Below, in pieces: positions 21,389 to 22,455 of a stretch of 22,455 nt of DNA. The stretch spans positions 1 through 22,455 of IMG/VR virus record IMGVR_UViG_3300010354_000734, one strand, 5' to 3'. The notes under the pieces were generated by a model. The model had not been told where the DNA came from. It saw only the letters and a program-made list of their open reading frames with translations, and ran no database searches. Source of the DNA: a virus. The translations under genes were made by a program, and so were the position numbers. The stretch's first letter is position 1; each line of letters starts with the position of its first letter.

Positions 21389-21562
21389 CTAGACCATGCC
21401 GATACGGTTGTAGTCGTCGCTCGTTCGCTCTTCGCGCAATAAAATTTTCAGGTCTTGCTCTAGTTGCTCGACCTTATCTCGCAAGTAGTCCCTCTGGGCT
21501 ATCACGCAAGCCGGGTGCATGCAGTAATAGCTGCACGTGTGTAAATCGTTTTTGTCTGTCAT
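21389..21562 (-). CDS. Small Cys-containing coiled-coil phage protein
   Basis: The 57-residue product reads MTDKNDLHTCSYYCMHPACV at the start. H8, C10, C14, H16 and C19 (HxC-x3-C-x-H-x2-C) could hold a metal ion. Residues 21-45 (IAQRDYLRDKVEQLEQDLKI) form a probable coiled coil. The type HTCSYYCxxPxCIxAQRDxLRD is a familiar small accessory protein of phages, with no known function. A GAGGAT ribosome binding site precedes the ATG. It is the last gene of the minus-strand cluster; its TAG is part of a CTAG palindrome. Confidence 0.82.
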   Translation of the reverse strand: MTDKNDLHTCSYYCMHPACVIAQRDYLRDKVEQLEQDLKILLREERTSDDYNRIGMV

Positions 21563-21593: not shown

Positions 21594-21800
21594 TCACGTT
21601 GCTATTCTTCTGGCGAATTCTGTCATCAGCTCCTGAGATATGCGTTGGATTGCGTATGCCTCTTGTTCACATCCTGGGGTCTTTTCGCCGTAAAAATCGC
21701 ACCACTCCTGCCATGCGTGCACGGCTTCATGAACCAATAAACCGGCTACTTCTATTGGGCTGTGCTTCTCATAGTTCGACAAGCACACAACAACCGCCAT
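21594..21800 (-). CDS. Mini zinc-metallopeptidase-like protein (HExxH), N-terminus uncertain
   Basis: From the only ATG in this frame the product has 68 residues. VAGLLVHEAVHAWQEW holds the HExxH zinc motif (H24, E25, H28), and E47 in EQEAYAIQ is 19 residues further, the spacing of a gluzincin third ligand. The sequence type (LLVHEAVHxWQ...GE..P..E.EAYAIQ.I.Q.L) is a common small phage protein. The frame stays open upstream to 21860 and there reads NWIKTEQADATAHHLFTREG, which looks like real family sequence, yet it has no standard start codon and is preceded by a TAA. The annotated start also lies inside the upstream gene, in another frame. Either the gene uses a non-standard start or it has been joined out of frame to the upstream gene. 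Activity is not proven. Confidence 0.66.
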   Translation of the reverse strand: MAVVVCLSNYEKHSPIEVAGLLVHEAVHAWQEWCDFYGEKTPGCEQEAYAIQRISQELMTEFARRIAT

Positions 21801-21942
21801 CCCTTCGCGCGTGAATAAATGATGCGCGGTTGCATCGGCTTGTTCTGTTTTTATCCAATTTTAAAATGCTTTGCCCGTGCTCGTTCAAGCCGATCTCAAA
21901 CCCAGCCTCCCGCGCCATGCGGATGATGTCGTCGCGTGTCAT
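21769..21942 (-). CDS. Small phage protein, MTRDDIIRMAREAGF type, possibly with a frameshifted end
   Basis: The 57-residue product begins MTRDDIIRMAREAGFEIGLN, a common N-terminus of short phage proteins that usually end with a helix such as ERFAALVAxAE. Here that usual ending is missing. After EHGQSILK the frame gives an Arg/Cys-rich sequence (DKNRTSRCNRASFIHARRDG) that looks like a shadow of the metallopeptidase frame. The start is well supported: AAGGGAAAG lies just before it and it overlaps the preceding stop in an ATGA. I think the first 25-30 residues are genuine and the rest is doubtful. Confidence 0.55.
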   Translation of the reverse strand: MTRDDIIRMAREAGFEIGLNEHGQSILKLDKNRTSRCNRASFIHARRDGGCCVLVEL

Positions 21943-22097
21943 TTCTTTCCCTTTGCTTGAATTGACGCGGCCACTAAGTAGGCGAAGCGCTTGAGTTCGT
22001 TTCCGCACAGCGGTGACTTAGTGCGGATCGACCCCGTTATTTCGCTAACCTCAAAGCCAGCCTTGCGCGCAAGTTCGGTGATTTGGGCTTTAGTCAT
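21939..22097 (-). CDS. Small phage protein, MTKAQITELARKAGF type
   Basis: The 52-residue product reads MTKAQITELARKAGFEVSEI, then TGSIRTKSPLCGNELKRFAY and LVAASIQAKGKK. Its N-terminus closely resembles that of the next gene (MTRDDIIRMAREAGFEI), and it keeps the usual ending ELKRFAYLVAAS that the next gene lacks. Such proteins are frequent in phage accessory regions and are probably small helical proteins of unknown role. GAG with flanking purines precedes the ATG. The gene overlaps both neighbours in ATGA junctions, so the three are translationally coupled. Confidence 0.82.
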   Translation of the reverse strand: MTKAQITELARKAGFEVSEITGSIRTKSPLCGNELKRFAYLVAASIQAKGKK

Positions 22098-22455
22098 TTC
22101 TCACTCCTCGCGCGGATGGCGGCGCTGTCAGCACCCCCGAACCGACGCCTGAATTCTGATTCTTGTGCGTCCATCGCTGCGGCCCACCCTGCAGCCCTCG
22201 CTGCAGCCCTCTCTGCAACACTCTCTGCTGCCCACGCTGCGGCACTCGCTGCGGCACTCGCTACGTCAATCGCTGCGCTCCTCGCTGCGTCCATCGCTGC
22301 GGCCCACCCTGCAGCCCTCGCTGCAGCCCTCTCTGCGGCCCTCGCTGCGCCCATCGCTGCGGCTAACTCAGCATCATTAGCGTCGCAATTTGCGTATCGC
22401 TCTGCTACGTCGATCGCCGCGATAGATCGGGGGTCGGTCATCAAGTGTTGCACTT
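22094..22455 (-). CDS. Alanine-rich repeat protein (5' end beyond window)
   Basis: The frame is open to the right edge, so the true start may lie outside; a GTG at 22453 is possible but unlikely to be the real start. About 119 residues are visible: a normal-looking helix (MTDPRSIAAIDVAERYANCD, then ANDAELAAA) followed by about 70 residues made almost only of Ala with Arg, Glu, Trp, Met and Asp, and an end GADSAAIRARSEK. This type, a DxxSxxAIxVAERY...ATxAELAAA start followed by AARAAxxAAxWAA repeats, is known from many phages as a protein of unknown function. Two stretches of 17 residues are identical because of a 51-bp DNA repeat. The stop overlaps the next start in an ATGA. Confidence 0.78.
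   Translation of the reverse strand, partial: VQHLMTDPRSIAAIDVAERYANCDANDAELAAAMGAARAAERAAARAAGWAAAMDAARSAAIDVASAAASAAAWAAESVAERAAARAAGWAAAMDAQESEFRRRFGGADSAAIRARSEK
22166..22216 (-). repeat. 51-bp perfect direct repeat, copy 1
   Basis: This segment is identical, base for base, to 22286-22336. It encodes 17 residues (AERAAARAAGWAAAMDA) of the alanine-rich minus-strand protein. The two copies are 120 bp apart start to start, exactly 40 codons, so the reading frame is kept. Confidence 0.93.
22286..22336 (-). repeat. 51-bp perfect direct repeat, copy 2
   Basis: Second copy of the repeat at 22166-22216. The sequence between the copies is related but diverged, built from the same Ala-codon words (GCAGC/GCGGC). 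Lack of third-position changes points to a recent duplication or gene conversion. Confidence 0.93.

Follow-up and report, generated by a model that had tools for sequence, protein, structure and literature searches.

A probable recombination relic in a P22-like podovirus: the end of an HExxH protease gene joined out of frame to the start of a small accessory gene

A protease frame that has no start of its own, and that lies directly behind the beginning of a small phage gene in another reading frame, raises the question of how the two came together and whether anything is made from them. A preliminary description of the locus proposed that a deletion, a recombination or a +1 frameshift had fused them. 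We investigated this in a 22,455-base virus record, referred to here as the window (the whole stretch of DNA that was analysed), which has no end repeats; such records are often a fragment. In our view, the locus is likely to be the relic of a recombination in the genome of a P22-like podovirus, the result of an out-of-frame join that probably does not work. In the following features, L001 and L002 are loci with an intact protease gene and L095 is the closest relative of the window.

21389..21562, minus strand: the gene that comes next in the leftward operon (MTDKNDLHTC...), with a conserved counterpart in L095 (80% identity)
21594..21860, minus strand: HExxH protease frame truncated at its 5' end, 88 codons without a start and without family residues 1–39
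21717..21731, minus strand: HEAVH zinc-binding motif (HExxH)
21769..21942, minus strand: 57-aa ORF, a true small-gene start (about 29 codons, 21942–21856) followed by off-frame protease DNA
21798..21800, minus strand: ATG, the sole in-frame start of the protease frame, abutted by the purine run AAGGG at zero spacing
21855..21864, minus strand: junction of the two truncated genes; homology to L001 and L002 starts at 21858, and the DNA upstream is unlike them except for a few bases
21861..21863, minus strand: TAA that opens the protease frame, the one TAA inside the extended profile match
21939..22097, minus strand: intact small gene of 52 aa that starts similarly (MTKAQITELARKAGF...LKRFAYLVAA), the stop of which overlaps the next ATG (ATGA)

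Two truncated genes joined in different frames

The protease frame (minus strand, 21594–21860) translates as NWIKTEQADATAHHLFTREG-MAVVV...HEAVH...RRIAT* and corresponds to the C-terminal 87 residues of a family of HExxH proteases whose members have about 125–130 aa (PHROG 882). Homology to the family begins at a W codon near 21857 and ends at about 21597–21604; the first ATG, GTG or TTG in the frame is the ATG at 21800, which gives an ORF of 68 aa (21594..21800). As the preliminary description had it, the frame runs past this only ATG in family-like sequence until it meets the TAA at 21861–21863 with no start codon; this is seen in the translation and in the relatives, and the coordinates are correct. 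The family profile matches the window record at E = 7e-54, beyond chance, with one match within the window that takes in the TAA when it is extended. Against PHROG 882 (phage proteins of unknown function; 135 positions), for which a literature search with 'phrog 882' returned 0 papers, the frame covers profile positions 47–124 (E = 1.3e-17); the intact L001 covers 41–125 and L191 covers 18–124. The window copy therefore shares the profile match and has the HExxH motif as well as the invariant Glu downstream of it (E103 in L001), but it is without the N-terminal third, including the strand–helix that, with a start codon, characterizes a complete gene, and without a start of its own. The N-terminal 40 residues of the protease were not found in the window in any of the six frames (best E = 0.056, in an unrelated place; the L002 control gave 1.8e-24), which rules out a mere frameshift inside one intact gene. 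Of the proposed fusion, the meeting of two truncated genes near 21855–21864 is supported and a +1 frameshift as its cause is not.

The other partner carries MTRDDIIRMAREAGF, the start of a family of phage small genes (the MTRDD small-gene family). A search for this start gave 173 loci, of which 80 were kept, and the first 15–22 residues are nearly identical in many of those kept. Seventy-nine distinct complete genes with this start were compared, the window gene among them (as L013); L115 (352 aa) is a false positive. Complete members go on to a ERFAALVAAAERE-type helix, and RARG is the ending of many of them. In its strict form, [R/K/H/T]F[A/V/T], the helix motif is present in 62 of the 79 and the other 15 are mostly variants (for example, NFAALV and VFAALV), whereas neither the motif nor a variant was found in the window gene. 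This gene departs from the family after about residue 29, lacks the FAALVAAAE-type second helix and is one of the 2 genes of at most 57 aa. Its tail, DKNRTSRCNRASFIHARRDGGCCVLVEL, corresponds to DKNRAGRRNGTSFFQARRNGGCCVLVEL in an off-frame ORF of the intact L001, with the same VEL* end, so the tail is protease DNA read out of frame. The 79-gene comparison and the L001 shadow peptide thus bear out the claim that the upstream gene starts normally, loses its helical ending and turns shadow-like. Because the 57-aa ORF has a good-looking ribosome site and an ATGA overlap with the preceding gene, its product may be made. For the intact 52-aa gene (21939..22097), the search found no relatives. Small-gene starts were found in 0 of the records of the 12 close protease relatives, an uninformative result from a 29-aa query without a control.

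As a separate observation, the 15-residue start MTRDDIIRMAREAGF is nearly fixed across L014–L093, and the downstream length and sequence vary widely, as if different bodies had been attached to one gene start again and again; the patterns used in the search are biased towards this start.

Both genes are cut at one point, and the joined frames are offset by +1 and overlap between 21860 and 21769. The base composition is smooth across the junction segment. We saw no clear homology at the junction, and it contains no known slippery sequence or +1 frameshift motif (of which the CTT-TGA of prfB is an example). The exact junction strings occur in 0 viral contigs, in a scan that may omit records very close to the window. 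Microhomology was considered and rejected: TTGGA, spanning an Ile-Gly pair, lies over the two codons before the helix motif in 1 of 62 family genes.

Intact relatives of the protease

A search of viral contigs, with the entire window frame as query, yielded 12 loci, all of them relatives by tblastn (62–83% identity), which align from residue 1 or 2 of the window frame and thus from upstream of the ATG at 21800. All 12 of these close IMG/VR relatives continue upstream in one frame, through MVKWLDRRISAPGPFLCLCLSEDEYKSAMK-like sequence, to an ATG (GTG in two). The same one-frame extension is present in 4 further IMG/VR records (a profile scan of viral contigs added L181, L183, L184 and the distant L186, for 16 loci in total), in 5 of the 5 relatives from a genome scan and in 3 phage records (EBPR siphovirus 1 and two of Acinetobacter phages) examined from the 51 that L001 matched; plasmid matches comprise 130 records. 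Every relative examined continues in one frame upstream of the equivalent of 21800, and none starts there, the finding that would have spoken against the preliminary description. A local profile scan of 199 loci points the same way: the window match starts at position 41 and the other family members start at 1–19, with the one exception of a divergent Acinetobacter copy that starts at 49 and has a longer frame upstream. The window piece has 82–83% amino acid identity to L001 and L002 over 85–87 residues and shares HEAVH and EQEAY with them, and in alignment A2 (15 relatives) the H, E and H of the motif do not vary.

Apparent late starters were considered and rejected. The gp60 of EBPR siphovirus 1 is annotated as short, yet it has an upstream in-frame ATG and family-like residues; the annotation of this gene (L194:2788-3183; JF412302.1 gp60) seems to be about 40 codons too short. 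Both of the Acinetobacter records examined annotate longer genes, of 411 and 435 bases.

The model of full-length L001 (pLDDT 85.3) has a strand at 15–19, a helix at 22–31, strands at 48–55 and 58–65, the HExxH helix at 73–94 and a C-terminal helix at 102–125. In a BFVD fold search, the first-ranked match is an uncharacterised protein (E = 4.2e-9); SprT-like is named in 2 of the 24 matches at E ≤ 0.001 (ranks 7 and 20), and the others include uncharacterised phage proteins. In the PDB, there were 0 sequence relatives at E ≤ 1 and 0 Foldseek matches at E ≤ 0.001, and a second look gave no Z of at least 5; no trustworthy zincin was found, an absence that is not evidence.

Genome setting

The nearest annotated genome, MW202867.1, has P22-like portal, coat and tail genes. 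At the right end of the window, a peptidase, which we take to be M15-type, is followed by a small gene labelled holin-like by its position and then by leftward small genes; in MW202867.1, the gene in the equivalent position to the peptidase bears the annotation L-alanyl-D-glutamate peptidase endolysin. The genes that flank the junction fit a normal leftward operon in their ATGA overlap, ribosome sites, strand and spacing and in the start of the next gene. Scans of the window gave 0 promoters (0.6 in shuffles), 4 terminator-like sites against 1.4 expected and no Rfam matches.

Intact copies of the protease gene have a different setting, which in the closest relatives is the packaging region, on the strand of the terminase and portal. 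The gene in L001 and L002 has 130 aa and follows NinG (PF05766 in L002), and in L002 it lies ahead of the terminase (PF17289) and portal and shares their strand. In L003 and L008, the terminase small subunit (PF20901) precedes the protease gene; in L188 and L191, the terminase large subunit follows it; and in the two Acinetobacter phage records, it lies between head and tail genes. In the window, the portal gene (phrog_156) is on the plus strand, and the protease fragment is on the minus strand, attached to another gene in an operon of small genes that follows the lysis genes. Compared with the gene in L002, the window piece is thus shortened, misplaced and on the opposite strand.

L095 (M15 peptidase, 88% identity; portal, 87%) is collinear with the window up to 21571. 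Beyond this point, a different gene, of 64 aa, takes the slot, an Ala-rich gene is also present, and the window segment from 21572 to about 22170 is missing; no protease was found within its 36.8-kb record. The window also has an Ala-rich gene (22094–22453, minus strand), to which the one in L095 is the counterpart, carried by a 12-base tandem repeat (array 22166–22363, 16.5 copies, 77% matches). The DNA of the window gene resembles hypothetical genes of Mycobacterium phages (75 of 81 records) and Pseudomonas phages (4 of 81), a resemblance that is probably due to composition.

Origin and fate of the junction

We suggest that non-homologous recombination or a deletion joined a piece of a packaging-region metalloprotease gene, minus its first 39 or so codons, to the opening 29 or so codons of a small accessory gene, which belongs to the leftward operon beside the lysis genes. 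The small-gene start would probably still yield a 57-aa peptide, the second half of which is nonsense. The protease frame, which has no well-served start, would probably not be made at all, or would give only a 68-aa stub from the ATG at 21800. Both truncations, the frame mismatch, the intact relatives and the different place and strand are seen directly, whereas the recombination event and the lack of a product and of function are inferred; the relic is probably both young and dead. According to the portions of De Paepe et al. 2014 (PMC3945230) used here, phages exchange small gene fragments more often than complete functional modules; relaxed homologous recombination was found, and illegitimate recombination was judged to be much less frequent. 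The window junction resembles this mosaicism in that a gene fragment has been joined in a new place, but it differs from relaxed homologous recombination in showing no clear homology there.

The protease frame retains the marks of selection. The window and L001 differ at 46 of 255 nucleotides, 35 of them at third positions, with 13 changes in 85 amino acids; random placement of the changes gives a mean of 31.0 amino acid changes (0 of 5,000 trials with 13 or fewer) and a stop in 88% of trials. We obtained a dN/dS of about 0.05 by NG86, with synonymous sites near saturation, and of 0.13 by YN00. The ATG at 21800 does not mark a change in conservation, with 2 of 19 codons changed before it and 11 of 66 after it, and no stop interrupts the 88 codons. 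This strong past constraint without decay indicates that the break is young or that some product has been kept. On the simplest reading of these comparisons, nearly all of the divergence from L001 would have preceded the cut, when the gene was whole, and the cut would be recent; purifying selection may leave room for a residual product. The constrained 88-codon open frame is evidence against a relic, as is the fact that the junction is known from one metagenomic contig.

The last point bears on an assembly or sequencing artefact, in which the contig would join two unrelated molecules or be wrong at the junction, with an intact arrangement in the phage itself. The absence of the junction strings from the viral contigs scanned (with records very close to the window possibly omitted), the missing segment in L095 and the lack of end repeats in a record of a kind that is often a fragment are all consistent with this. 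However, the flanks are those of a normal leftward operon, the base composition is smooth and a single-base error cannot explain 39 missing residues; we therefore regard an artefact as unlikely.

A working short protease of 68 aa, made from the ATG at 21800 by reinitiation or leaky translation, would have the HExxH motif and the downstream invariant Glu in a frame that is open and was formerly under purifying selection. Mapped onto the L001 model, the 88-codon frame loses strand 15–19 and helix 22–31, and a product that begins at the ATG (residue 59 of the model) also loses strand 48–55, so that two of the model's three longer beta strands are absent from the stub. The AAGGG run leaves no spacing to the ATG, no relative starts at this point and the window has 6 residues unlike those of all 7 relatives compared, one of them in place of an Arg that is invariant in those 7. 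Such a protease is very improbable. We see a similarly small chance of a working chimera, in which the small gene would lend its translation start, and perhaps a new N-terminal helix, to the HExxH domain by means of a +1 slip or of reinitiation; if true, this would explain the missing decay in the protease frame and would represent a gene just coming into being within the accessory operon of a phage.

The least likely reading is a +1 ribosomal frameshift near the junction: a slip within the overlap from 21860 to 21769 would fuse the two frames into a chimera of 115 aa (346 nucleotides, 21942 to 21597, minus 1), and not the 113 or so residues first proposed, but there is no known +1 motif at the junction, and the relatives keep the protein in one frame, with no such fusion among them. 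The overlapping frames are not conserved in relatives, as would be expected of a programmed +1 frameshift, and we found no positive evidence for the suggested dependence of expression on frameshifting.

A recombination relic would provide a clear example of how phage accessory operons gather broken pieces of other genes and, if the fragment is expressed, of gene birth by mosaic joining. It is also a warning for annotation: gene callers could report two products, a 57-aa protein with a nonsense tail and a 68-aa 'mini-protease', although it is unlikely that either represents a genuine functional gene.

Other arrangements were seen among the loci examined. In L038 (5001–5878), 1 of the 80 kept loci, the stop of a MTRDDIIRMAREAGF-type small gene overlaps the beginning of a distant HExxH gene (phrog_1365), whose C-terminal part is longer; the two gene types are neighbours there and both are intact. 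From this single case, a deletion between a neighbouring small gene and HExxH gene is conceivable. In L184 (3608–5917), the protease gene closely follows a long ORF that is coat-like by look and precedes a short ORF that resembles the start of the large gene that follows the protease in L003, perhaps another rearrangement.
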